64,000 bases of DNA from Myxococcus sp. RHSTA-1-4. Lineage in GTDB: Bacteria; Myxococcota; Myxococcia; Myxococcales; Myxococcaceae. Each line of letters starts with the position of its first letter. Within the stretch, counting starts at the first letter, position 1. The notes below the pieces were generated by a model. The model did no database searches, had not been told where the DNA came from, and was given only the letters and a program-made list of their open reading frames with translations. Position numbers and translations under genes: made by a program. The stretch is from positions 1-64,000 of the forward strand of contig NZ_JAIQDG010000047.1 of the NCBI RefSeq assembly GCF_020037125.1, written 5' to 3'. Below are positions 2,727 through 52,657 of the stretch, piece after piece.

Positions 2727-4390
2727 AGGCGGCCTCGGCGCGGTGGCTCGGCCTGGGTGCGTGGCTGGTGCCCATCCTCTTCTTCGCCGTGGGCCCCGTC
2801 GGGGCGCTGCTCCTGCGAGGCACGGGGGCTCACGGCGACGCGGGCCTGGCCTGGCTGGCCTCGGAGACCGGAGCGCTGGGGAACACGCTGGGCATCTCCG
2901 CCGGGGCGGCGGCGCTCGCGTTCCTGCTGGGCGCGCCGCTGTCGCTGCTGCTGTTCCGTACGGACCTGCCGCTGCGCGGCGCCTTCACGGTGCTCTTCAC
3001 CCTGCCCTCCGCGATTCCGGCGTTCATCTGGGGCATGGGGTGGCTGTCGCTCGCCAGCCCTCGCGCGGGCTACCTCAACCGCCTGCTGGGCGACGGCGCC
3101 TTCGACATCTATGGCCCGGCGGGCATCGCCTTCGTCGAGGGCTTGTCGGGGCTGCCGCTGGTGCTGCTGGCGGGGGCCGCGGCGCTCCGGCGGGTGGACC
3201 CGGCGCTGGAGGAAGCCGCGCGGGTGTGCGGCGCTTCACCCCTGCGCGCGCTGCTGACGACGACGCTGCCCCTGGCCCTGCCGTCGCTGCTGTCGGGCAC
3301 GGTGATGGTGTTCCTCATGGCCGCGTCGTCCTTCGGCGTTCCGTACCTCCTGGGTGTGTCGGCCTCACCGCCCACGCGGGTGCTCACCACGCGAATCTAC
3401 GAGCTGGTGCTGTTGGGTGGGGATGCGGGCCTGGCACGCGCCTCGGTGCTGGCCACCGCGCTCCTGCTGCTCACGCCCCTGGCGCTCCTGGCGACATGGG
3501 CCCTGGGACGCTCCGGCCGTGTGCGGCTGAGCGCGGGCAAGGGCGTGGCCTCCCGTCTCCTTCCGCTGGGCCGTGCGCGTGGGTCCGCTCTGGTGGCCGT
3601 GGGCCTCACCTGCGTGCTGCTGGTGCTGCTCCCGCTGGGCGCCATCCTCCTCACGTCCATGCAGCGCAGCTTCGGCGCGGAGCTGGCGTGGCGGGAGCTG
3701 ACGCTGGCGCACTGGTCCGGCGTCCTGCTGGAGCCGCGCACACTGCGCGCCACGGGGCGCAGCCTGCTGCTGGCCGCGGGGGCGGGAGGGCTGGTGTGCG
3801 TGCTGGGGCTCGCGGCCGCGGTGTTGCAACGGAGCTTCCGCCGGCTCGGGGCGGGAGTGGAGGCGCTCGCCGTATGGCCCTACGCCGTCCCGGGCACGGT
3901 GGTGGCGCTGGCGTTGCTGCTCGCCTTCTCGCGGGACCTGCGCTTCATCCTGCTCGGCCGGGCCGCCTTCGTGCTCGCGCTGGCGCACACGCCGTGGCTG
4001 CTGCTCATCGCCTACGCGGCGAAGTACCTCGCGCTCGGAGCGCGGAACAGCGCGGAGGCGCTGGCGCAAATCGACCCGTCACTCGCGGAGGCGGCACGGG
4101 TGAGCGGCGCGGGCCCGGTACGCGCGTTCGTGGACGCGCCGCTGCCGTTGCTGCGCCCGGCGCTCACGGTGGCGTTCGTGCTGGCCTTCCTCGCCTGCGC
4201 GACGGAGATAACGATGTCCGTGCTCCTCGTGCCCGCGGGCTCGGAGGTGCTGGGCACGCTCCTGTTCGAGCTGCAGAGCTACGCGGACCCGGCCGCCGCG
4301 GCGGTGCTGGCCTGTGCCTTCGTGGCGCTGGTGGTGGTGGGCCAGTCGGTGCTCGCGCTGGTGGGCCGGCGCACGGTGGAGGTGCGGTGA
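2723..4390 (+). CDS. ABC transporter permease, two fused inner-membrane domains
   Basis: 555 residues from the ATG that overlaps the binding-protein stop. About twelve hydrophobic segments fall into two homologous halves, each with a cytoplasmic EAA-type loop: EEAARVCGASPLRALL in the first half and AEAARVSGAGPVRAFV in the second. This duplicated arrangement is typical of FbpB/SfuB-type permeases of ferric-iron importers. It would form the channel for the lipoprotein upstream, powered by the ATPase at 4461. The frame stays open far upstream of the chosen ATG, but that part overlaps the binding-protein gene and is not credible. Confidence 0.88.
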   Translation: MKAASARWLGLGAWLVPILFFAVGPVGALLLRGTGAHGDAGLAWLASETGALGNTLGISAGAAALAFLLGAPLSLLLFRTDLPLRGAFTVLFTLPSAIPAFIWGMGWLSLASPRAGYLNRLLGDGAFDIYGPAGIAFVEGLSGLPLVLLAGAAALRRVDPALEEAARVCGASPLRALLTTTLPLALPSLLSGTVMVFLMAASSFGVPYLLGVSASPPTRVLTTRIYELVLLGGDAGLARASVLATALLLLTPLALLATWALGRSGRVRLSAGKGVASRLLPLGRARGSALVAVGLTCVLLVLLPLGAILLTSMQRSFGAELAWRELTLAHWSGVLLEPRTLRATGRSLLLAAGAGGLVCVLGLAAAVLQRSFRRLGAGVEALAVWPYAVPGTVVALALLLAFSRDLRFILLGRAAFVLALAHTPWLLLIAYAAKYLALGARNSAEALAQIDPSLAEAARVSGAGPVRAFVDAPLPLLRPALTVAFVLAFLACATEITMSVLLVPAGSEVLGTLLFELQSYADPAAAAVLACAFVALVVVGQSVLALVGRRTVEVR

Positions 4391-4461
4391 TGGGAATGGC
4401 GCCCGGAGTGCTGGAGCAGACGCGCAGGCGAGTGGACCGGCGCACGAGGGAGGCTCGGTGA
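4390..4461 (+). CDS. Intercalated 23-codon micro-ORF, coupled on both sides
   Basis: A tiny open frame (begins MGMAPGVLEQ, ends REAR) fills the whole gap between permease and ATPase. Its ATG overlaps the permease stop (TGATG at 4388-4392) and its stop overlaps the ATPase ATG (TGATG at 4459-4463). The peptide is Arg-rich and matches nothing I know. It could be a relay that carries ribosomes to the ATPase gene, a remnant of a shortened gene, or chance. Both junctions share CGGTGATGG, so a junction duplication is possible. See the clearer cases at 22096-22206 and 26179-26312. Confidence 0.3.
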   Translation: MGMAPGVLEQTRRRVDRRTREAR

Positions 4462-5495
4462 TGGCGTCCATCGCGCTGGGGGGCCTGTTCAAGTCGTACG
4501 GCGCCACGCCGGTGGTGCGGGGCCTCAGCCTGGACGTACGCGAGGGGGAGCTGGTCTCCCTGCTCGGGCCGTCAGGCTGCGGGAAGACGACGACGCTGCG
4601 AATGCTGGCGGGGCTGGAGCATCCGGACTCGGGCGTCATCCGCATTGGCGGGGAGACGGTGACCGGGCCCGGAGTGCGCGTTCCTCCCGAGCGCCGCGGG
4701 CTGGGCATGGTCTTCCAGAGCTACGCCGTCTGGCCCCACCGCTCCGTGGAGGAGAACGTGGCCTACCCGCTGACGCTGCGGCGCCTGGCGAAGGCGGAGG
4801 TGGCGTCGCGCGTGAAGGAGGCACTGAGGTGGGTGCGGCTGGAGGCGCTCGCGACGCGCAGGCCGCACGAGCTGTCGGGTGGCCAGCTCCAGCGCGTGGC
4901 GCTCGCGAGGGCGCTGGTGGCCAGCCCGCGCGTGCTGCTGCTGGACGAGCCGCTGTCCAACCTGGACGCCGCCCTGCGCGAGGAGCTGCGCGCGGAAATC
5001 GCCGCCCTGCGCGCGAGGCTGGGCACCACCATGGTCTTCGTCACGCACGACCAGGGCGAGGCGCTGGCCCTGTCGGACCGCATCGCGGTGATGAACCAGG
5101 GCGTCATCGAGCAGGTGGACGCGCCCGAGCGGCTCTACCGTGAGCCCGCGACGCCCTTCGTCGCGGGCTTCGTCGGAGGAGCGAATGTCCTCGTGGGCCA
5201 GGTCCGCGACGGCGCGTTCCACACCGCCCAGGGAGACACGAGGTTCCCCCTGCCGCCGGGGACAGCCGCTCCGGACGGCCCCTGCACGCTGGTCGTCCGC
5301 CCGGAGGACCTGGAATTGGGCGCGGAGGGCACGCCGCTGCCCCTCTCCGCGCGCCTGTTCCTCGGGCACGCCGCGGAGTACCGCTTCCCGGTGGGGGGCA
5401 CGCTGCTACGCGTGGTGGGCCCGCCCCGCGAGGTGCGCGCGGGCGAGGTGCTGCCCGTGCGCATCGCGAAGGCAAAGCTGTTCGCCACCGGGTGA
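4461..5495 (+). CDS. ABC transporter ATP-binding protein, ferric-iron type
   Basis: 344 residues. The complete ATPase core is present: Walker A GPSGCGKTTT (36-45), Q-loop Gln86, signature LSGGQ (138-142), Walker B LLLDEP (159-164) and switch His196. The C-terminal third (about 235-344) is a TOBE-like regulatory domain, as in FbpC/PotA/UgpC-type ATPases. The ATG at 4461 is preceded by GAGGGAGG; the longer open frame reaches back into the permease and is not used. It ends a three-gene importer operon. Confidence 0.9.
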   Translation: MASIALGGLFKSYGATPVVRGLSLDVREGELVSLLGPSGCGKTTTLRMLAGLEHPDSGVIRIGGETVTGPGVRVPPERRGLGMVFQSYAVWPHRSVEENVAYPLTLRRLAKAEVASRVKEALRWVRLEALATRRPHELSGGQLQRVALARALVASPRVLLLDEPLSNLDAALREELRAEIAALRARLGTTMVFVTHDQGEALALSDRIAVMNQGVIEQVDAPERLYREPATPFVAGFVGGANVLVGQVRDGAFHTAQGDTRFPLPPGTAAPDGPCTLVVRPEDLELGAEGTPLPLSARLFLGHAAEYRFPVGGTLLRVVGPPREVRAGEVLPVRIAKAKLFATG

Positions 5496-8723: not shown

Positions 8724-8848
8724 GGCCCTTCCTTCCATCCTCCAGAGGCGGACCCGCCCGGATGTGAGCACGGCGCGAGGCTCCCTGCCAACGCACGGCC
8801 CGCGTGGGGTCCACGGCGCCTTTCTCGCGTAGGCTCCCCATCCGCCGC

Positions 8849-9955
8849 ATGAGCCTCCTCCGACGCGCCACCCGTGAAGACAATGCCGCGCTGCTCGACC
8901 TGTTCGGCGCGGTGCCCATGCAGGGCGAGCTGGTCCTCTCCACCCGGCGTTCCCCGGACTACTTCGCCCTCTTCGACATGCAGCGCGGCGACGCGGAGGT
9001 CTGGGTCCACGGCGAGGGAGGCCCGCTCGACGGCATGGGCGCCATCCACGTGCGCGACGGCTGGCTGGAGGGCCGCCCGTGCCGGGTGGGCTACCTGGGC
9101 GACCTGCGCACCCGCTTCTCCGCGCGCCGGACCCGGGGCCTCGCCCGCTACTTCGGCCCCGTGCTGGAGGAGACGGCGCAGCGCCTGGGCGTGGACACCT
9201 TCCTCACCGCCGTCATGGCCTCCAACGCCACCGCCCTCCAGGCCCTGGTGCGCCGCCGCCCCGGACGCGAGGCCCAGCCCCACTACGCCCTGCTCCGCCG
9301 CTTCTCCGCCGTCTCGCTCCAGTTCCTGCTCCGCCGCCGCCCCCGTCCCAGCGCCTTCACCGTGCGCCGTGCCACGCCGGAAGACCTCCCCGCCATGGCC
9401 GCGCTCCTGGACGAGGACCACCGCGCGCGCCCCTTCGGATACCGCTACGACGCCGGCGAGCTGGAGCACCGCTTCGCCCGCTGGCCGGGGCTGCGCGTGG
9501 AGGACACGTACCTCGCCTTCGACGCGGGCGGGCGGCTGGTGGGCTGCACCTCCGCGTGGAACCCCGAGGCCGTGAAGCGCTACCGCGTCCACGCGTACCG
9601 GGGAAGCATGCGCTGGGTGCGGCTGGGTTGGAACGCCATGGCCTCCGTGGCGCGGGCGCCGCGACTGCCCGCTCCCGGCAGTGACTTCCGCTACTTCTAC
9701 CTCTGCAACACCAGCGTGCGCGGAGAGGACCCCGCCATCTTCCGCGCGCTGCTGGAGCAGGTGTACGCGGACTTCCACGGCCGCGGCTTCCACTTCGTCA
9801 CCCTCTACCTCGGAGAGGACGACGCGCTGGCCCCGGCGCTGAAGGGCTTCCTCCAGCGCCGGCTCGACTTCCACCTCTACGCGGTGACACCGGCCTCGCG
9901 CCCGCGTGACACATTCCCACCCGGGCGCACCGGCTTCGAAATCTGCCTGCCGTAG
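8849..9955 (+). CDS. GNAT-like acetyltransferase, probably two tandem domains
   Basis: 368 residues starting at MSLLRRATRE; the open frame begins 15 codons earlier with unlikely sequence. Two parts each begin like a GNAT domain: LLRRATREDNAALLDLF near the N-terminus and FTVRRATPEDLPAMAALLDED near 175. The first has the GYLGDLRTRFSARRTRGLARYFG acetyl-CoA-loop-like stretch near 80-100 and the C-terminal part keeps the strand FHFVTLYLGEDD. A tandem GNAT or a GNAT with a degenerate second copy is the best reading. The acceptor is unknown. Confidence 0.7.
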   Translation: MSLLRRATREDNAALLDLFGAVPMQGELVLSTRRSPDYFALFDMQRGDAEVWVHGEGGPLDGMGAIHVRDGWLEGRPCRVGYLGDLRTRFSARRTRGLARYFGPVLEETAQRLGVDTFLTAVMASNATALQALVRRRPGREAQPHYALLRRFSAVSLQFLLRRRPRPSAFTVRRATPEDLPAMAALLDEDHRARPFGYRYDAGELEHRFARWPGLRVEDTYLAFDAGGRLVGCTSAWNPEAVKRYRVHAYRGSMRWVRLGWNAMASVARAPRLPAPGSDFRYFYLCNTSVRGEDPAIFRALLEQVYADFHGRGFHFVTLYLGEDDALAPALKGFLQRRLDFHLYAVTPASRPRDTFPPGRTGFEICLP

Positions 9956-18317: not shown

Positions 18318-19505
18318 TCAAATCCAGAAGACCATGTCGCGCTCGGCCTCCTCGGGGCCCGAGCCGTGGCCGCCCTCACGCAGCCAGCGGCGGTACGCCT
18401 CGATGTCCGCGTGGTGCAGGTCCGCCTCGGTGCCGGTGTAGACGCCACCGCCGGGCCCGTCGAGCAGGGCCTCCCGCTGGATGTCCATGATGACGACGTC
18501 CTGCTGGATGACCTGCCGCGTGTACCAGCGCACCAGCGGCCTCAGCGCGCGCCCCACCAGCGCGCCCGGCACGTCCACCGGGAGCCGGTAGCTGATGGCC
18601 GTGTAGACGAGGCTGTCCGTGGGGCCGATGGGCGTGCACTGCGAGTTGATGACGAAGCCGTGGCCGCCCCACAGGTAGTCCACGCGGGTGACGTTGGGCA
18701 CGTAGTACTTGTCCGTGTGGAGCAGGGGCAGGCCGCTTGGGTTGAAGAGACGGCCCAGCCCGGTGACGGTGTCCTGCTCCTGCTTGTACGTCACCAGCAC
18801 GCTGCCCGCCGTGCGCCGCACCGTGGCCGGCACGCGCCGGCTCGCCGGCTTGCGGAACCAGCCCGGGTGCACGAAGAGCGTGTGCGGCACGTCCATGAAG
18901 TTCTCGACGAGGTTCGTCACCCCGTTCGCGAAGCGCGTCACCATGAAATAGACGGTCCACCCGGGCTGTCCCCAGTACGGCACGCGGAAGGGCTCGGCCC
19001 GGGCGCGCGACGCGTCGGGGCCGCCCATGAAGACGTAGACGAGCCCGTCCTGCTCCACCGTGGGGAAGCGCTGGAGGCGGCCCAGCGCGCAGGGCTCGGG
19101 CTGGAGGCCCTCGCGCGCGCACGCTTCCGCGTCCAGCAACTCGCTCCGCTGCGAGGGCCCCAGCGAGGGCACCTCCACCACCGCGCCGGACGCGTCGTAG
19201 ACCCAGCCATGGTACGGACAGCCGAGGCGTCCGTGGAACACGGCCCCGCGCGACAGCTTCGCGTTGCGGTGCAGGCACCTGTCGCGCAGCGCGGTGGGAC
19301 GGCCGTGCTCGTCGCGGAAGAGGACCACGCCCGTGCCGAAGAGGGTGCGCGCCAGGGGCGTGCCGGCCTTCAGCTCGGTGGAGAGACAGGCCACGTACCA
19401 GTAGTCCTTCAGCGCGCCACAGCGGGCGAGGTCGGCCTCCGCCTCCAGGTCCACGTTGGGCGTGCGCGGGGCTTCGACGGGGTGCGGGTGCTGGAGCTGT
19501 CTCAT
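18318..19505 (-). CDS. Rieske non-heme iron oxygenase
   Basis: 395 residues from the ATG overlapping the GH3 stop (ATGA at 19502-19505). The Rieske [2Fe-2S] motif is Cys77-x-His79 and Cys96-x2-His99. The mononuclear iron site is Asp205-x2-His208-x4-His213 within NLVENFMDVPHTLFVHPG. Size and layout fit the oxygenase component of ring-hydroxylating or sterol/pigment-modifying Rieske enzymes (VanA/PaO-like). It would need a reductase from elsewhere. Co-translation with an acyl-adenylating GH3 enzyme suggests a shared small-molecule or lipid pathway; the substrate is unknown. Confidence 0.88.
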   Translation of the reverse strand: MRQLQHPHPVEAPRTPNVDLEAEADLARCGALKDYWYVACLSTELKAGTPLARTLFGTGVVLFRDEHGRPTALRDRCLHRNAKLSRGAVFHGRLGCPYHGWVYDASGAVVEVPSLGPSQRSELLDAEACAREGLQPEPCALGRLQRFPTVEQDGLVYVFMGGPDASRARAEPFRVPYWGQPGWTVYFMVTRFANGVTNLVENFMDVPHTLFVHPGWFRKPASRRVPATVRRTAGSVLVTYKQEQDTVTGLGRLFNPSGLPLLHTDKYYVPNVTRVDYLWGGHGFVINSQCTPIGPTDSLVYTAISYRLPVDVPGALVGRALRPLVRWYTRQVIQQDVVIMDIQREALLDGPGGGVYTGTEADLHHADIEAYRRWLREGGHGSGPEEAERDMVFWI

Positions 19506-21265
19506 GCGGCGACTCCGGAGAAGTGGGCGGACCAGCCGGGCTGGCGGTGCAGGTCCATGGGCTTGATGTCGCCGGCACGCTGGCCGAGCGCGATGCAGCG
19601 GGCCTCGTAGCGGCGGGCCCCTTCCGCGACGCGCACGGCGCGCACCGGGCCGAGCTGTCCCAGCTCGCGCGCATAGCGGTAGTGGTGGCCCTCGCACAGG
19701 GCGCGCTCCACGGCGGCGGCGGCCTCGGCGAGGCGGGTTTCGGGGGCGGTGGTTTCGAGAAAGAGGCGGTAGGCGGGAGGCTCCGGCGCCTGGGCCCACT
19801 CCGGGGCGAGCATGACGAAGGCGGGACGCTCGCCACCGAAGAGGGCCGGCAGCGTGGCGTCCAGCACGGCGCTCACGCGCGTGGCGGAGAGCTTCTCTCC
19901 CACGAGGTCGCAGACGGAGTCCGCGCGGCCGGCGAAGCGCAGGCAGGGCGTGGAGTGCACGAAGCCCTCCACGCGCACCAGGTCTCCCAGGCGGTAGCGC
20001 AGGAGCCCGCCGGAGGTGGAGAGGAGCACCGCGTACGTGCGGCCCCGCTCCAGCTCGTGCGCGAGGCGGGGGCGCGCGCCGGGCTGCTCGGCGTCGAGGA
20101 ACTCGAAGAAGTGGCTGCGGACGGCGAGCACGGGCGCCGGCGCGTCGAAGAGGGGCACTGTGACGACGCCTTCGGTGGCCAGCAGGCCCTTGCCCTGGAC
20201 CTCGACTCCGGTGAAGCGGCGGCACGCGGCGGGCACCGCGTGCGCGGCCTGCGCGTCCGTCCACATGCTGAGCAGTGACAACCGGGGCCACAGCTCGCGG
20301 GCCTGGAGGCCGTGGCGGAGGGCGGAACGGAGCACGGCGGCGCGCTCGGGACGGCGGGTGAAGCGCATCCGGGAGAGGACGGCTCGCACCTCCTCCGCGT
20401 CTCCGGGTGGCCGGCAGGCGCCGCGCTCCAGGTCCTCCGCCAGTCGCTCGCCGTGCCGCTCCAGCGCGTCCATTAGCAGCGTGAGGAAGCTCGGGTTCCA
20501 CACGCTGATGAGCGCGAGGTCCTCACACGCGACGAGGTGCCACAACGTCACGTAGCGGCAGCGCTCCACGTCCGGCAGCGCGCCCACCGCGCCCGGCACC
20601 GCGAACACCCGCGAGAGCAGGGGCCGCAGCGCGCGGGAGAAGTAGGCGCTGTCCTCCACGCTGCCCACCGGGAGCCCTCCGGCCGTCCTGCCCTGCTTGC
20701 GGCCCATGGGAGAGATGGACCAGTAGCTCGGCCCGATGCGCAGCGCGGGCCTGCGATGGAGCAGCTCGAAGAGCATGGGGGACAGGGCGCGCTGGAACTC
20801 GTCGAGCAGGCCCTGCGTCATGGGCACCAGCTTGCTCGCTCCGGAGGAGCCTCCCGAGGGCTCGAAGCGCAGCACCGGTGCCTGCGTGAGCACGCGGGCC
20901 TCTCCGGCCGCGATGCGCTCCACGTCCGGCGCGATGCCGTCCGGTGTCACCATGGGCACCGCGTCCTGGAAGTCACGCGGCGTCTTCACCCGGTCGAAGC
21001 CCGGGACGCGCGCGGCCTGCTGGCTCCCCGAGACGGCCCGCAGCACCCGGGCGAGGCACTCCGCCTGTGCCGCCTCCGGGTCACGCAGGGCGCGATGAAA
21101 GCGCAGCGCGGAGGGCGCCAGTGCGGCGCGCAGCCCACCGAGCGGTACGGAGGAGGGAATCACGGCGCGCCTCCCGGGCTCCCGCATGGATGCGAGTCCG
21201 GCCTCAGAGGCGGCCCGCCGGGCAATACGCACGAGGGAGTCACGGCGCGGCTTCCGCGCCGCCAC
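19502..21265 (-). CDS. GH3-family acyl-adenylating enzyme
   Basis: 587 residues. It matches bacterial homologues of plant GH3 auxin-responsive enzymes. The adenylate-forming motifs are seen as LRFEPSGGSSGASKLVP (P-loop-like, about 132-148) and LLSTSGGLLRYRLGDLVRVEGF (about 428-449), with LRFAGRADSVCDLVGEKLS after it. Plant GH3 enzymes join carboxylic acids to amino acids via an acyl-AMP; bacterial roles are poorly known. The start is uncertain: GTG 21265 has a weak ribosome site and ATG 21187 (MREPGRR) is a good alternative. Its stop overlaps the Rieske gene. Confidence 0.82.
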   Translation of the reverse strand: MAARKPRRDSLVRIARRAASEAGLASMREPGRRAVIPSSVPLGGLRAALAPSALRFHRALRDPEAAQAECLARVLRAVSGSQQAARVPGFDRVKTPRDFQDAVPMVTPDGIAPDVERIAAGEARVLTQAPVLRFEPSGGSSGASKLVPMTQGLLDEFQRALSPMLFELLHRRPALRIGPSYWSISPMGRKQGRTAGGLPVGSVEDSAYFSRALRPLLSRVFAVPGAVGALPDVERCRYVTLWHLVACEDLALISVWNPSFLTLLMDALERHGERLAEDLERGACRPPGDAEEVRAVLSRMRFTRRPERAAVLRSALRHGLQARELWPRLSLLSMWTDAQAAHAVPAACRRFTGVEVQGKGLLATEGVVTVPLFDAPAPVLAVRSHFFEFLDAEQPGARPRLAHELERGRTYAVLLSTSGGLLRYRLGDLVRVEGFVHSTPCLRFAGRADSVCDLVGEKLSATRVSAVLDATLPALFGGERPAFVMLAPEWAQAPEPPAYRLFLETTAPETRLAEAAAAVERALCEGHHYRYARELGQLGPVRAVRVAEGARRYEARCIALGQRAGDIKPMDLHRQPGWSAHFSGVAA

Positions 21266-21325
21266 GTGGAGACGGGTCCGTCACCGCGAATGCACCTGGA
21301 GGACGCGCTCACGCCCCGGCCCTCC

Positions 21326-22099
21326 TCACGTCCCCGCACGGACGCCCACCTGCCGCAGCCCGCGCCGCGCCCAGCCGCGAACCTGCCCCCACACACTGCG
21401 CCCGAGCGCCCGCGCGAGGTCCCGCCAGCGGATCTCCACGAGGCACACCAGCTCCTCACCCTCCACATGTCCGGGGTTGCGCTCGGCGAAGAAGGCGATG
21501 TGTGGATGCGCCGCCGCCGCGCGGTCGATGGGAGCGATGCCGTCCCGCACGCGGTAGTGCATCCCGTGGAAGCGCAGCGTGCCCCGCGCCGCGTCGTACT
21601 GCTCGCCGAACCAGCGGGTGGCCAGCTCCCGCAGGAAGTCCGCGCGTCCAGGCGGAGGCGACCAGTCGCGCCTGGGCATCGTCCGCGCGAAGTAGTTCAC
21701 CGCGAGCAGGTACGTCTTGAACCCGGCGCTCAGCAGCAGCCAGTGCACCGGGCGCAGCGGGTTGTGCAGCTTGCGCCACAGGAGGAAGCGCCCGAAGCAC
21801 ACCTGCAACACCTTGTGCCCCCACCAGTCCGGGTGGATGACCGTGTCGCCCGAGTACACCACCTCCACCACCTGCGTCCCGATGCGCTCCTCCGCCACGC
21901 GCACCGTGCTGAAGCCCACCAGCTCCGCGCTCCGCCGCGCGTGCAGGAGGATGACGTACTGCTTGGCGTCCAGGTCCGCCATGAACCGCTCCGCCGACAC
22001 ACCCGCGTAGCAGAGCTGCATCAGCGCCAGCATCTGCGCCCGCTGTGCCTCCGTGAGCGACTCGCGCCGTACCGTGGAGCCCTTGAGCGCGGACATCAT
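21326..22099 (-). CDS. Probable acyltransferase (GNAT-like fold)
   Basis: 257 residues. It has N-terminal sequence typical of N-acyltransferases (LTEAQRAQMLALMQLCYAGV), then VVEVVYSGDTVIHPDWWGHKVLQVCFGRFLLW in the position of the acyl-CoA binding loop, and a Trp/Arg-rich C-terminal part. I do not recognise a named family with certainty. It begins with two adjacent ATG codons inside a 31-bp direct repeat and is joined by TGATG to the micro-ORF upstream. It lies between the RnfD/FG-GAP gene and the GH3 gene, so it probably belongs to the same pathway. Confidence 0.6.
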   Translation of the reverse strand: MMSALKGSTVRRESLTEAQRAQMLALMQLCYAGVSAERFMADLDAKQYVILLHARRSAELVGFSTVRVAEERIGTQVVEVVYSGDTVIHPDWWGHKVLQVCFGRFLLWRKLHNPLRPVHWLLLSAGFKTYLLAVNYFARTMPRRDWSPPPGRADFLRELATRWFGEQYDAARGTLRFHGMHYRVRDGIAPIDRAAAAHPHIAFFAERNPGHVEGEELVCLVEIRWRDLARALGRSVWGQVRGWARRGLRQVGVRAGT

Positions 22100-22117
22100 G
22101 GCGTGGCGCTCCCGCGC
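22087..22117. repeat. 31-bp direct repeat, copy A (partner 22194-22224)
   Basis: The 31 bases at 22087-22117 are identical to 22194-22224, an offset of 107 bp. The homology continues imperfectly for about 20 bp to the right of each copy. Each copy carries one TGATG stop/start junction, so the repeat defines the micro-ORF between them. Confidence 0.85.
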
Positions 22118-22202
22118 GGCGCCGCGGCATCCGCGGGCATTGGCGCCGGCCGCGCTTTCGCGCGCGGCTCACCTTGCGCCGTGAAGTCCCCTGGCGCGGA
22201 CA

Positions 22203-22206
<4 letters not shown>
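22096..22206 (-). CDS. Intercalated 36-codon micro-ORF with duplicated junctions
   Basis: Begins with two ATGs (MMSAPGDFTA...) and ends ...APRGSATP. Its start overlaps the stop of the RnfD/FG-GAP gene and its stop overlaps the start of the acyltransferase gene. Both junctions read CCATGATGTCCGCGC. The last six residues (RGSATP) equal the C-terminus of the upstream gene and the first four (MMSA) equal the N-terminus of the downstream gene. This is what tandem duplication of a stop/start junction would produce. Whether the peptide matters or only passes ribosomes along is unknown. Confidence 0.4.
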
Positions 22207-25070
<2,864 letters not shown>

Positions 25071-25222
25071 GGAACAGTGCCTCCGGCCCTGCGCGACGCG
25101 CGCTTCGTTTCCAGCCCGGGCAGGTGGCCCGAGCGTGCCCCGCCTCCCGCGTGCTGTCCAATCAGGGCCGGGACTTGCAAAGGCCCTCCCCGCATGTACT
25201 CACCTGAGTGCCGGTTCATGTC

Positions 25223-26179
25223 ATGAGCGAGCCTCTGCAAGCCCCGCCCCAACCCCTCGCGCTGCCCGCTCCGTTGCCTCGACGCGCCGCGGTGCCGCGC
25301 GCACTGCTGGTGCGAGCCACCGTGCCGGGGCTGCTGCGCCTCGCGGCCATCGAGTGGGCCTGGATGGGCGCGTGCTGGCTGGCCATGGCCCTGTGGCCGT
25401 GGGTGGCGCCGCTCGCGGTGCCCGTCATCGCCGGTCGGCTGCATGCGCTCGGCGTCATCCTCCACGACGCCGTGCACCTGAGCGTGCGGCGCAAGGGATG
25501 GGGGCTGCGGCTCCTGGAGGTGCTCGCCGGCTACCCGGTGGCCAGCACCTGGGAGTCCATGCGCTACCACCACCTGCGCCACCACCGTGACGCGGGCCTG
25601 CCGTCGGACCCGTACCGCCGGCGCCCGCTCCACGGCTGGCGCCTGTGGCGCGCGTGGCTGCTGCTGGTGGGCGTGATTCCCTTCTGGGTGCTGCGCGGGC
25701 CGGTGGGCCTGCTCGCATGGGTGGTGCCTCCGCTGCGCGTCCCGTATGCGCGGCTGTTCCTCCAGGCGGCTCCGGCAGAGGGGCTCGCGGACTCCGAGGA
25801 GGTGCGGGACTGCGCGCGAGCGGAGTCGGGACAGGTGCTGTTCCATCTGGGCGTGCTGGCGCTGGCGTGGCGCTGGCCGGAGGCGGTGGCGTGGGGGTAC
25901 GGGTTGCCGCTGCTGGTGGCCTCGGGGCTCAACGCGCACCGGCTGCTGGCGGAGCACACCGGAGCGGAGGCGCGCGGGCGCACGCTGGAGGACGTGCTGG
26001 CGGTGACGGCGGACCACGGGCTCGGGTGGCCGGGCCGGCTGTGGCTGGCGCCGCGCAACGTGGGCTACCACGTGGTGCACCACCTGCATCCACAGGTCTC
26101 GCTGGAGCACCTGCCCCGGCTGCGCGCGTGGTACGTGGCCCGCTTTCCCACCTACTATCCCCCGCCCCGGCGCCCCTGA
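25223..26179 (+). CDS. Fatty-acid desaturase family membrane enzyme
   Basis: 318 residues from ATG 25223; a GTG five codons upstream is also possible. The three His boxes of membrane di-iron desaturases are complete: HDAVH (81-85), HHLRHH (116-121) and HVVHHLHP near 280. Four hydrophobic stretches sit between them. It is divergent from the RnfD/FG-GAP gene across 152 bp that should hold both promoters. Together with the GH3 and Rieske genes it suggests a pathway building or modifying an unusual acyl compound (inference). It is followed by two micro-ORFs and then a membrane-protein gene, all joined by TGATG. Confidence 0.85.
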   Translation: MSEPLQAPPQPLALPAPLPRRAAVPRALLVRATVPGLLRLAAIEWAWMGACWLAMALWPWVAPLAVPVIAGRLHALGVILHDAVHLSVRRKGWGLRLLEVLAGYPVASTWESMRYHHLRHHRDAGLPSDPYRRRPLHGWRLWRAWLLLVGVIPFWVLRGPVGLLAWVVPPLRVPYARLFLQAAPAEGLADSEEVRDCARAESGQVLFHLGVLALAWRWPEAVAWGYGLPLLVASGLNAHRLLAEHTGAEARGRTLEDVLAVTADHGLGWPGRLWLAPRNVGYHVVHHLHPQVSLEHLPRLRAWYVARFPTYYPPPRRP

Positions 26180-26182
26180 TGC
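26164..26182. repeat. 19-bp direct repeat at a stop/start junction (partner 26297-26315)
   Basis: GCCCCGGCGCCCCTGATGC occurs at the end of the desaturase gene and again, unchanged, at 26297-26315 just before the membrane-protein gene. Looser similarity continues about 35 bp downstream of each copy and of the middle junction at 26239. The pattern indicates two rounds of tandem duplication of a gene junction. Confidence 0.8.
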
Positions 26183-26241
26183 GGTCTCCGCACGCCACCC
26201 GCCTCCTGGTCGCCCTCCACCCTCCTCCGCCGCCCACCTGA
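26179..26241 (+). CDS. Micro-ORF A (20 codons) in a TGATG chain
   Basis: MRSPHATRLLVALH followed by a Pro run and stop. The ATG overlaps the desaturase stop (26177-26181) and the stop overlaps the ATG of micro-ORF B (26239-26243). The N-terminal part resembles the start of the real downstream gene (MLSPHTRVLLAVLA) closely, so it looks like a degenerate copy of that gene's 5' end. Translation is plausible by coupling but unproven. Confidence 0.4.
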   Translation: MRSPHATRLLVALHPPPPPT

Positions 26242-26312
26242 TGCGCTGCCCGCGAACCCGCGCCCTGCTCATCGTGCTCGCCCGCCACCATTCCCTGCCC
26301 CGGCGCCCCTGA
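26241..26312 (+). CDS. Micro-ORF B (23 codons) in a TGATG chain
   Basis: MRCPRTRALLIVLARHH then a short tail ending LPRRP. Its ATG overlaps the stop of micro-ORF A and its stop overlaps the ATG at 26312. The start resembles the N-terminus of the downstream gene; the end (PRRP, TGATG) repeats the end of the desaturase gene (19 identical bases). It therefore carries a copy of both sides of the desaturase/membrane-protein junction. Confidence 0.4.
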   Translation: MRCPRTRALLIVLARHHSLPRRP

Positions 26313-26935
26313 TGCTCTCCCCGCACACCCGCGTCCTGCTCGCCGTGCTCGCGTTCGTCTGCGCCGTGGCCGCGCTCCTCTTCCGCCGCGCGCAGAACCA
26401 GAGGGGCGCGCGCGGCGGGCGCATCTCCGGGCCCAAGCTGGCGTGGCTCTTCTACGCGGTGTTCCTCTGGTTCCTCGTCTGCCCGCTGGTGGCGCTGGAC
26501 GCGGCGGTGCCGAAGGAGGCGCGCGCGGTGCTCGGCGCCTTCGCCGCCTTCATGTGGCTGCGCGGCGCGGCGGAGCTGTACCTGCTCTACGTGACGAAGA
26601 GCTGGCGGCCTCCGTACGGCGTGGCGCATGACGTGGCGTGCATCGTGCTGGTGCTCGGCGGGCTGTTCTGGGGCCGCTCGCGGTGGATGGGGACGCCAGG
26701 CACCGCGGACCTGTGGGCGCTGGCCTTCGTGGGACTGGTGCTGGTGAGCCTCTTCGTCGAGGTGGCCTACGCCGCGCTCTTCTTCCACGCCGTGGAAGGA
26801 CGCACCACGGGCGAGGAGGGCATCTGGTTCGCGGACGAGGAGCAGGCGCGCTTCCGCCGCATCAACCGGCTCACCCTGGCCCTCAACGTGCCGCTGTACG
26901 CGGGGCTGGCCGCGCTGCTCGTGATGGCGAGGTGA
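26312..26935 (+). CDS. Polytopic membrane protein of unknown function
   Basis: 207 residues with about five hydrophobic helices (around 6-22, 40-60, 70-90, 100-118, 128-152) and a final one near 190-205. A soluble loop with EGIWFADEEQARFRRINR precedes the last helix. I do not recognise a family. It is the last gene of the chain that begins with the desaturase, so it may assist that enzyme or transport its product. The following 70 bp before the retron operon show no clear element. Confidence 0.65.
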   Translation: MLSPHTRVLLAVLAFVCAVAALLFRRAQNQRGARGGRISGPKLAWLFYAVFLWFLVCPLVALDAAVPKEARAVLGAFAAFMWLRGAAELYLLYVTKSWRPPYGVAHDVACIVLVLGGLFWGRSRWMGTPGTADLWALAFVGLVLVSLFVEVAYAALFFHAVEGRTTGEEGIWFADEEQARFRRINRLTLALNVPLYAGLAALLVMAR

Positions 26936-27005
26936 GCGGGCCGGTCAGGGCCCCAACGTCGTCTTCCACTCCCGTCCCGCTCTCGATTAACGTACGCCGC
27001 TCGCC

Positions 27006-28763
27006 ATGAACTCCGATTCCGCGTCGGCGCTGCTCCTCGATGAGTATTTCGCAACGGGTGATGCGCGCTTTCTCGAGGAGCTCTTCCGGAGCCGCTCGGA
27101 GAAGAAGCTCAAGTCCCTGGCGGAGCGCTGGTACGGCGATGAGCGCCCCTTCGCGCGCCAGGCGCTGCTCGGCTACATCGACGATGGGTGTGACCGGCCC
27201 GGACACCGAGCGTTGGTGAAGGCGCTCTTCAAGCGCGCCGAGGCCCGGGGCGATGACGAGGCCATGGGGCACTTCCTCGTGGCCTTCGACCGGCTCGCGC
27301 GGCGCGACCTCAAGAAGCGCACGGGCTGGGACTGGTCCACACGCCAGCCGACGGAGAGCTGGGCCCTGGAGTGGGACCGCGCGGTGCCGAACCGCGCCCG
27401 GCGGCAGGGCGGGCACCACGCGTCGAAGCGCTCCAAAGAGGGCTACTTCCTCTACCACCCCATGCCCCGCTTCTCCCGCGTCACGCGCCAGTACCTCCAG
27501 CGGCGGGCGTGGCGCTACTTCCGGAAGCAGTCCCACGCGAAGACCCAGGGGAGCGCGGCGAAATACGGGACGGCCATCCGCGCCGTGCTGGCCCTCTACC
27601 AGGACGAACACCTGAGCCGTCCCGAGCGCCTCATCGACGCCTGGGGCCTGATGCACGCGCTCTACCACGGCTCCCCCGTCCTCCTGCGGCGGCCGAAGGG
27701 CATCACCGTGGCCGACGGGCACACGCTGGCCGAGCTGCGGCCCGCGCCCTACTGCCCCGACGCGTGGCGCGGCTGCCGGGACGCGCTGCTCGACCTGCTC
27801 ACCACTGCCCGGAGCCGCACCGTCCGGACGTTCTGCATCGACCGCCTCAAGAGCGAGTACGTCCAGGAGCTCCGCGGCCTGCCCGTGAGCCAGCTCAAGC
27901 CGCTCCTCGACAGCCCCCATGAAGAGGTCCAGTCGTTCGCGGTGGAGCTCCTCCAGGCGGCGACGGGACTGGAGCTGCTGCCGATAAAGGAGTGGCTGGC
28001 GCTCCTGGAAATCAACAACCCGGTGGCGCTGCCCCTCCTCTGCACGCTGGTGGAGAAGACGGTCTCCCCCGAGCGCCTCACCCTCGTGCAGTGCATCCAG
28101 CTCGCGTGCTCCCGCGCCGCGCCGGTGGCGGAGCTGGGGCTGCGGTGGGCGAAGGCGAAGCGCATCGCCAGCGCGGACGACCTCGCCTTCCTGCTGCGCC
28201 TGACGCGCGCCGAGGCCCCGAATGTCCGCGCCGACGGCATCGACTGGGTGTGCCAGCTCCTGCTGCTCGCCGACACCGCGAAGCCCGAGCTCGTCCGCGA
28301 GCTGCTCGATGCCCGCCACGCCGATGTCCGCGCGCGGGCGCTGGAGCTGCTGGCGAAGGACGCCCGCTTCGGAGACAACGCCCTCCTCTGGACGGCCATG
28401 TCGGAGAGCCCCTACGACGACGTGCGGCAGGCCCTCCTGCGCATGCTCCCGGAGAAGGAGAAGGCCTTCGACCCGCGGAGCCTCCAGCACCTGTGGGCCA
28501 CGGCGGTGCTCGCGGTGCACCGGGGTGGCCGGGCCCGCCAGCTCGCGACGAACCAGCTCGCCGAGCGCGTCGTCCGCAAGCCCGAGGAGGCGGACGCGCT
28601 GCTGCCCATCCTGGGCTTCGCGCTGCGCAGCCTCCGCGCTCCGGAGCGGCGCACGGCGCTGGCCTCCCTGTCCCGGGTCGCCTTCCAGCGGCCCGCGCTG
28701 AAGGACGCCCTCTCGCGTTTGCTGCCGGAGCTGAAGCTCGTCGGTGACGAGGTGACCTCGTGA
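27006..28763 (+). CDS. Retron-associated HEAT/ARM-like repeat protein
   Basis: 585 residues with no signal peptide or membrane segment. An N-terminal basic region (about 100-200) precedes a long series of paired helices from about 250 to the end, with repeating Leu-rich units such as HEEVQSFAVELLQAA, RADGIDWVCQLLLLADTA and HADVRARALELLAKDARF, which is typical of HEAT/ARM solenoids. It overlaps the next gene by four bases (GTGA) and is the first gene of the retron operon. HEAT-like plus SWIM proteins are, to my recollection, the accessory pair of the Mx162/Sa163-type retrons. The role could be to sense phage or hold the toxic partner inactive; which protein is the toxin is not clear. Confidence 0.75.
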   Translation: MNSDSASALLLDEYFATGDARFLEELFRSRSEKKLKSLAERWYGDERPFARQALLGYIDDGCDRPGHRALVKALFKRAEARGDDEAMGHFLVAFDRLARRDLKKRTGWDWSTRQPTESWALEWDRAVPNRARRQGGHHASKRSKEGYFLYHPMPRFSRVTRQYLQRRAWRYFRKQSHAKTQGSAAKYGTAIRAVLALYQDEHLSRPERLIDAWGLMHALYHGSPVLLRRPKGITVADGHTLAELRPAPYCPDAWRGCRDALLDLLTTARSRTVRTFCIDRLKSEYVQELRGLPVSQLKPLLDSPHEEVQSFAVELLQAATGLELLPIKEWLALLEINNPVALPLLCTLVEKTVSPERLTLVQCIQLACSRAAPVAELGLRWAKAKRIASADDLAFLLRLTRAEAPNVRADGIDWVCQLLLLADTAKPELVRELLDARHADVRARALELLAKDARFGDNALLWTAMSESPYDDVRQALLRMLPEKEKAFDPRSLQHLWATAVLAVHRGGRARQLATNQLAERVVRKPEEADALLPILGFALRSLRAPERRTALASLSRVAFQRPALKDALSRLLPELKLVGDEVTS

Positions 28764-52258: not shown

Positions 52259-52657
52259 TCACATCCCCGGGTGCATCCCCATGTCCTCGTCGCCGTGGAT
52301 GAGCCACTGGCGCGCGGAGGACTCCTGCCAGAAGCGCCGGAGAATCCGGTCCGTGTGGCTCTCCCGGGCGATGCGGTTGAGCTGCAGCGCCACAATCTGG
52401 CTCTCCACCATCTCCGCCACCCGCACCACGCCCCGGCGCAGCCCGTACTCCTGCACCCGGCGAATCATGTCCGCCGCCTCGGGCGACGCCGGCTTGAAGG
52501 TCCGCACGTCCGCCTTGATTTTGATGTCCCGCCCCTGCAACGAGTCCGTGGCCCCCTTCAGCTCCGCCACGAAACGCTGCATCTCCTCCACGCGGATGTA
52601 GCCGTCGAGGATGAAGTCCACGATGGAATGCTGCCGGTCGACCTCTATCTGGAACAC
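52259..52657 (-). CDS. SpoIIAA-like / STAS-type protein
   Basis: 132 residues. It begins with a short strand pair (MFQIEVDRQHSIVDFILDGYI) followed by VEEMQRFVAELKGATDSLQGRDIKIKADVRTF and a long C-terminal helix region. This matches the SpoIIAA-like (STAS/CRAL-TRIO-type) small proteins common in myxobacteria. No Ser of the anti-sigma-antagonist type is in the expected DSxG motif. Role unknown; perhaps a regulatory binding partner. No operon partner. Confidence 0.65.
   Translation of the reverse strand: MFQIEVDRQHSIVDFILDGYIRVEEMQRFVAELKGATDSLQGRDIKIKADVRTFKPASPEAADMIRRVQEYGLRRGVVRVAEMVESQIVALQLNRIARESHTDRILRRFWQESSARQWLIHGDEDMGMHPGM

Follow-up and report, generated by a model that had tools for sequence, protein, structure and literature searches.

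The stop codon of a fatty-acid desaturase gene and the start codon of the following gene, which encodes a 207-aa protein, are separated in Myxococcus sp. RHSTA-1-4 by two micro-ORFs that connect to each other and to both genes by TGATG overlaps. Three copies of the junction, frames that lead from one overlap to the next and an origin private to this genome were read directly from the DNA, and open-frame and frame-specific excesses were counted at other junctions. The reading we prefer, with a probability of roughly two in three, is that local duplication turned a direct coupled junction into three, and that inserted DNA at strictly overlapping junctions persists mostly as a translated relay. 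The window, i.e., the whole stretch of DNA analysed, comprises 64,000 nucleotides (contig NZ_JAIQDG010000047.1, positions 1 to 64,000); its features are compiled in Table 1.

Table 1. Genes, relay micro-ORFs and repeat copies at the coupled junctions of the window
Feature	Position	Strand	Remarks
Relay micro-ORF (GTG 24 or ATG 23 codons)	4387..4461	+	71-nt junction duplication
344-aa gene after the 4387 relay	4461..5495	+	probably ABC-transporter ATPase, judged by the N-terminus
Gene after the 257-aa relay, 553 codons from GTG 21163	19502..21163	-
Relay micro-ORF (GTG, 50 codons), 257-aa/next-gene junction	21160..21312	-	contains 80-nt-spaced repeat
257-aa gene, flanked by two relays	21326..22099	-
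Relay micro-ORF, 35-36 codons, 955-aa/257-aa junction	22096..22206	-	107-nt junction duplication
955-aa gene, divergent operon	22203..25070	-	NQR2/RnfD, FG-GAP and UnbV_ASPIC matches
Fatty-acid desaturase gene (PF00487), upstream partner	25208..26179	+	putative start; stop TGA 26177-26179
Junction copy A: genuine desaturase end, TGATG, drifted downstream-gene start	26152..26219	+	repeat analysis
19-base identical repeat, copy 1	26164..26182	+
Relay micro-ORF 1, 20 codons	26179..26241	+	ATG 26179, stop 26239-26241; both ends TGATG
Junction copy B	26214..26281	+	repeat analysis
Relay micro-ORF 2, 23 codons	26241..26312	+	ATG 26241, stop 26310-26312; both ends TGATG
Junction copy C: drifted desaturase end, TGATG, genuine downstream-gene start	26285..26352	+	repeat analysis
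19-base identical repeat, copy 2	26297..26315	+
207-aa protein gene, downstream partner	26312..26935	+	ATG 26312; putative membrane protein by hydrophobic sequence
Further relay micro-ORF (GTG, 25 codons) between 207-aa and 585-aa genes	26932..27009	+	GTGA at 207-aa stop, ATGA at 585-aa start
585-aa gene	27006..28763	+	weak HEAT_2 match, below Pfam cut-off; GTGA overlap with next gene at 28760

A first-pass annotation of this DNA had described the two micro-ORFs with their three TGATG junctions, and coordinates and frames were confirmed. At 26177, 26239 and 26310 the stop codon shares 1 nt with the following start codon, one of the two overlaps (1 or 4 nt) expected of translationally coupled pairs. 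The 19-base identity between 26164 and 26297, claimed in the same annotation, is exact, and the pattern has no further match in the window even when up to 3 mismatches are allowed. The 207-aa protein had no Pfam or NCBIfam match. Neither the three junctions of the window nor the corresponding junctions in 22 relatives showed a Shine-Dalgarno-like motif (GGAG, GAGG, AGGA) at -20 to -5. No RNA family reached the gathering score between positions 20000 and 31000, and the window contained no tRNAs.

A family-level search covered 96 genomes and located the 207-aa gene in 53, the window's genome included. The junction was read in 49 of the 52 others (G009, G023 and G026 were left out) and in named database records. 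The desaturase gene adjoins the 207-aa gene in 22 of the other genomes read, each time in a direct junction (20 TGATG, 2 TGAATG); a TGATG-type junction is thereby conserved among these relatives, as expected of a coupled pair. None of the 22 carries the micro-ORFs or the insert, and since every pair is direct, the window's genome is the only one of those read that has the insert. A close desaturase occurs in five other genomes of the window's genus, always in direct junction. At nine loci of the genus (L007-L015) the 207-aa gene stands without an adjacent desaturase and without TGATG, and loci beyond these also hold it without an adjacent desaturase. The annotation had held that relatives retaining and expressing the downstream gene with broken micro-ORFs would speak against selection on the chain. 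Relatives that retain the gene without the micro-ORFs exist, yet those that bear the gene pair keep the direct overlap, and the micro-ORFs are therefore shown to be dispensable only when the overlap is direct. Three minor observations were made at these loci. A TCCTCCTGATG or TTCCTGATG scar lies at the start of the 207-aa orthologue in L022 and L023, both from genus g6 (which may be Corallococcus) and without an adjacent desaturase. In genome G064 (C1:11327600-11328595) the desaturase matches in two overlapping pieces, which hints at an internal duplication or indel. Record BNCN01000005.1 (L035), titled Comamonas sp. KCTC 72670, carries the myxobacterial locus, so its label looks wrong.

The proposal that the TGATG junction had been duplicated was borne out. 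The array consists of three diverged junction copies with spacings of 62 and 71 nt, the outer two being 60% and 75% identical to the middle one. Aligned to the joined junction of desaturase end and gene start, a reference that carried one extra G, the 133-nt insert scored 69. This value was reached by none of 2000 dinucleotide shuffles (maximum 65) and none of 3963 other pieces of the window (maximum 51), hence the duplication is real. Compared with the genuine gene start, copy B is changed at 8 of 39 sites and copy A at 10 of 39, with dN/dS of 0.30/0.13 for B-C, 0.27/0.42 for A-C and 0.56/0.49 for A-B, while the genuine 207-aa gene among five relatives gave a dN of 0.06-0.07 and a dS of 0.18-0.23. 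By this comparison the peptides are not conserved, and to judge from their sequences they look unconstrained. Conserved, functional small proteins are accordingly a very improbable explanation of the micro-ORFs. Their open frames and high third-position G+C (0.85 and 0.91) speak for it, but they are missing in 22 of 22 relatives with the gene pair, had no Pfam match up to E=1, and the relay peptides at a second junction (see below) vary between genomes.

A neutral by-product is the more serious, though still unlikely, alternative: copying TGATG supplies overlaps automatically, stop codons are rare at 70% G+C, and the chain may simply not have decayed yet. The private occurrence of the insert agrees with it, as does the comparison of the micro-ORF starts with the gene start, in which amino-acid-changing and silent changes per site were about equal. 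In a neutral simulation, restricted to substitutions and started from the present chain, the chain stayed intact in 22%, 9%, 6% and 2% of the runs at 13%, 20%, 24% and 29% divergence. A neutral origin thus fits the desaturase/207-aa locus, and the case for selection from this locus alone is only suggestive; it does not fit the 257-aa/next-gene junction, where it leaves 13 of 13 open, frame-matched relays unexplained, nor does it account for a frame-specific enrichment over 2.43 Mb (both below).

The architecture of the insert is the same as that of the mycobacterial MIRUs, as depicted in the available part of a review (PMC12548453): a short insert at a gene start with an internal ORF coupled at a spacing of -4 nt. 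There it has been proposed that the coupling softens the impact of the insertion on the expression of the target gene. In both systems the internal ORF overlaps the following gene, here by the 1 nt of TGATG. That a dispersed mobile repeat of this kind had been inserted at the TGATG site is nevertheless the least probable of the explanations considered, bordering on the negligible. MIRUs are portrayed as one mobile repetitive family, whereas the present insert matches its own local junction. A 231-base region compared with 27 genomes of the genus gave, beyond orthologous gene starts, matches of 30-60 nt with E of about 1e-5 or weaker, and no convincing other copy was among the matches listed. 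Local duplication, rather than mobility, probably explains the insert.

According to the preferred reading, desaturase and membrane-protein genes would ancestrally have shared a direct TGATG, with coupled translation. Local copying of the junction in the window's lineage would then have raised its number to three, and each additional copy would have brought its own stop overlapping a start. A ribosome would pass from the end of the desaturase gene into micro-ORF 1, by TGATG into micro-ORF 2 and from there to the start of the membrane-protein gene; the hand-over could work since the spacings of 62 and 71 nt are each 2 modulo 3 and come with stop-start overlaps. The unbroken hand-over would matter, the peptides would not. 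An untranslated gap of about 20 nt nearly abolished coupling in six tested pairs from Haloferax volcanii and E. coli, as far as the accessible text of that study reports (PMC10666635). On this basis a 133-nt insert should break coupling unless it is translated, and selection should therefore keep inserts that read through to the next start. We infer that ribosomes translate the relays and that selection removes loss of coupling.

The evidence for a more general process comes from other junctions, above all the one that follows the 257-aa gene in the adjacent, divergently transcribed operon. It was read in 42 genomes (30 + 12 loci); 23 had a direct junction and 19 had insertions. In the window's genus (three) and in g6 (ten, L257 included) all 13 insertions are relays with a single frame that stays open from the ancestral start site on. 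The cases in this count are not independent, since some inserts share sequence and about 8 groups result by our own grouping, and several candidate starts near the upstream stop leave some freedom in the relay calls. In all ten g6 insertions the relay terminates at start+4, in the three of the window's genus at start+1. In g6 the start of the next gene lies at 51, 72, 90, 105, 108, 156, 165, 183, 300 or 423. The net lengths of the 13 inserts range from 47 to 419 nt; no two are alike, and all are 2 modulo 3. Not a single stop was found in the 694 codons of the relay frame. Shuffled inserts had a mean of 14.9 stops, and none of 5000 shuffled sets was fully open. The other two forward frames had 30 and 6 stops in 12 inserts, plus 6 and 6 in L257. 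The relay peptides at this junction are mostly unrelated between genomes. In L257 a 60-nt unit that seems to stem from the end of the 257-aa gene is repeated in tandem 6.8 times (about 2225-2629); the array forms a relay of 141 codons without a stop.

A third genus, g3, behaved differently: only one of its six insertions (L265) is a relay. In the five others a gap of 18-30 nt lies between the end of the first ORF and the nearest ATG or GTG start in frame. This result is the clearest evidence against a relay rule. The non-relay inserts of g3 carry GAGG near the start, and several relays do as well; the presence of a Shine-Dalgarno motif was considered as a discriminator and rejected, because it does not separate the two classes. 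The inserts of L258, L259, L262 and L264 contain repeated CCCTCTCCC...GGTGAGGG units in place of a relay. Clustered repeats of 89-98 nt with GGAATGGA/TTCCATTCC-like parts were noticed in the window's genome (G000, contig C57) at about 247476-248126 and 52320-52530 (L131, L121). They perhaps represent a dispersed intergenic repeat family, and the insert of L094 has letters similar to them.

Frame usage between neighbouring genes was counted for 1137 same-strand pairs in 2.43 Mb of sequence, taken from the genomes G000 (1.229 of 11.24 Mb), G064 (0.8 of 13.2 Mb) and G018 (0.4 of 10.1 Mb). The genes were called by a simple finder of our own, and some relays may be real small genes. The set consisted of pairs without a direct junction whose first gene stops with TGA, and it was divided according to whether or not an ATG or GTG overlaps this stop. 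A +2-frame ORF that ends at an overlap with the start of the second gene was present in 34 of 131 pairs with the overlapping start versus 36 of 369 without (p=1.1e-5). The other frames were not enriched (+0, 7/131 versus 41/369; +1, 19/131 versus 58/369). With all stop codons included the counts were 35/136 versus 78/625 (p=1.5e-4), after removal of six duplication cases 28/125 versus 36/369 (p=4e-4), and for ORFs shorter than 92 nt 24/131 versus 25/369 (p=3e-4). A repeat scan gave 33 hits, ten of them of the coupled type. The spacing was 2 modulo 3 in six of these and 0 in three (102, 138 and 60); the desaturase/207-aa locus appears with 133 (1 modulo 3), because its row spans both steps, 62 and 71. 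The repeat with spacing 138 (G000 C45 122374) has no relay, and at the repeat with spacing 102 the next start is reached by a single 68-codon ORF. The 23 non-coupled hits were distributed over spacings of 2, 0 and 1 modulo 3 with 9, 6 and 8 cases.

Conserved adjacent pairs were compared across the fetched stretches, which provided only 55. A junction was counted if identity exceeded 60%, if one genome had its start at -1 or +2 and if the other differed by at least 15 nt. Among 13 rows, two were set aside as poor orthologues (42% and 32% identity) and two repeated a junction. Six junctions passed, and five of them are relays: desaturase/207-aa (in two steps), 22205, 4388, 21328 and G064 134072. 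The sole non-relay is G018 121/120 with a difference of 20 nt. Two rows had the direct start at +15, of which G064 158/159 is a relay and G018 185/184 is not.

The first-pass annotation had inferred that termination-reinitiation through the chain is selected. The locus taken alone does not establish this, given the absence of the chain from all 22 relatives and the 6-9% of neutral runs that stay intact at 20-24% divergence. The general idea gained ground from the other junctions, i.e., the 13 of 13 inserts, the five of six orthologue junctions and the 2.43-Mb frame test; the five non-relays among six g3 insertions and the one non-relay orthologue junction count against it. That the duplicated DNA was left readable as tiny frames suggests that inserts are kept mainly when the ribosome hand-over persists. 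In its widest form, that coupling at strictly overlapping junctions of these myxobacteria matters so much that inserts of any origin are kept mainly if they read as a relay, beginning at the old start site and stopping in overlap with the next start, the idea is tentative, and we rate it slightly below an even chance. C-rich, G-poor RNA is the kind bound by Rho, and with 72 C and 29 G among its 133 bases the insert is of this composition. Translation could thus shield the insert and block Rho termination inside the operon, the exact hand-over being secondary. We consider such a shield improbable, since it needs an open frame but not a stop overlapping the next start, which is where 13 of 13 relays outside g3 end.

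Termination-reinitiation coupling as such is well known, and the closest precedent is the MIRUs, whose insertion at a gene start brings in a coupled ORF. The overlaps described here are the same ATGA and TGATG as in coupled pairs studied earlier (PMC6728339, PMC10666635), but the available sections of these papers deal with direct gene pairs, whereas here inserts are kept as relay ORFs; PMC6728339 makes no mention of 'myxococc'. Unlike in the MIRU family as presented in the excerpted review (PMC12548453), the inserts at the other junctions vary in sequence and length, and the frame is what is common to all. In leader-peptide reinitiation a short ORF also stands ahead of a gene and is proposed to raise its translation, according to the accessible text of PMC4833913. 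Leader genes are treated there as a means of expression control, whereas the relays separate two genes of an operon, and ribosomes would enter them by reinitiation. Neither a frame rule on junction duplications or inserts across relatives nor relay insertions at myxobacterial junctions were found in the open-access literature searched. If inserts of any origin are indeed filtered by frame, junction duplication and repeat expansion would keep yielding new translated small ORFs, a possible gene nursery, and insertion lengths would record which operon junctions are coupled in nature. Comparing such lengths would then reveal, without expression data, junctions that depend on the hand-over, and would allow a genome-wide test of the strength of selection on coupling. 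Unannotated micro-ORFs between operon genes may in that case be spacers whose peptides have no role.

Further junctions of the relay kind, which the first-pass annotation had overlooked, are present in the window, one of them in the adjacent divergent operon. The 107-nt relay (22205, minus strand) had no counterpart in 29 relatives (L090-L118), and in the 14 that belong to the genus the two genes meet in a direct ATGATG. At the 4388 junction 16 of 17 genus relatives are direct; the remaining one (L160) has a 50-nt relay, which looks independent because some of its letters recur in the gene start of L160 itself. All junctions traced in the two divergent operons (about 19.5-30.5 kb) are direct overlaps or relays. 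G064 contains relays of 95, 86 and 113+86 nt. The 95-nt relay is direct in the orthologues of G000 and G018, and the second one (86 nt, G064 100087) is a plain ATGA in two orthologues. The relay steps of 107, 71, 50, 95, 86, 113 and 86 nt are all 2 modulo 3. In the window, the repeat spacings 62, 71, 71, 80 and 107 (4388, 21130, 22205, 26177) are in addition all 8 modulo 9, which beyond the modulo-3 rule is probably chance. Coupled-junction duplications with a score of at least 20 in the 1.229 Mb of the window's genome (4388, 22205, 26177) were located only within 22 kb of one contig. A second two-step chain of 38 and 29 codons, with spacings of 113 and 86, was observed in G064 (L215, about 8724-8924, minus strand), where it leads to a putative response regulator gene.
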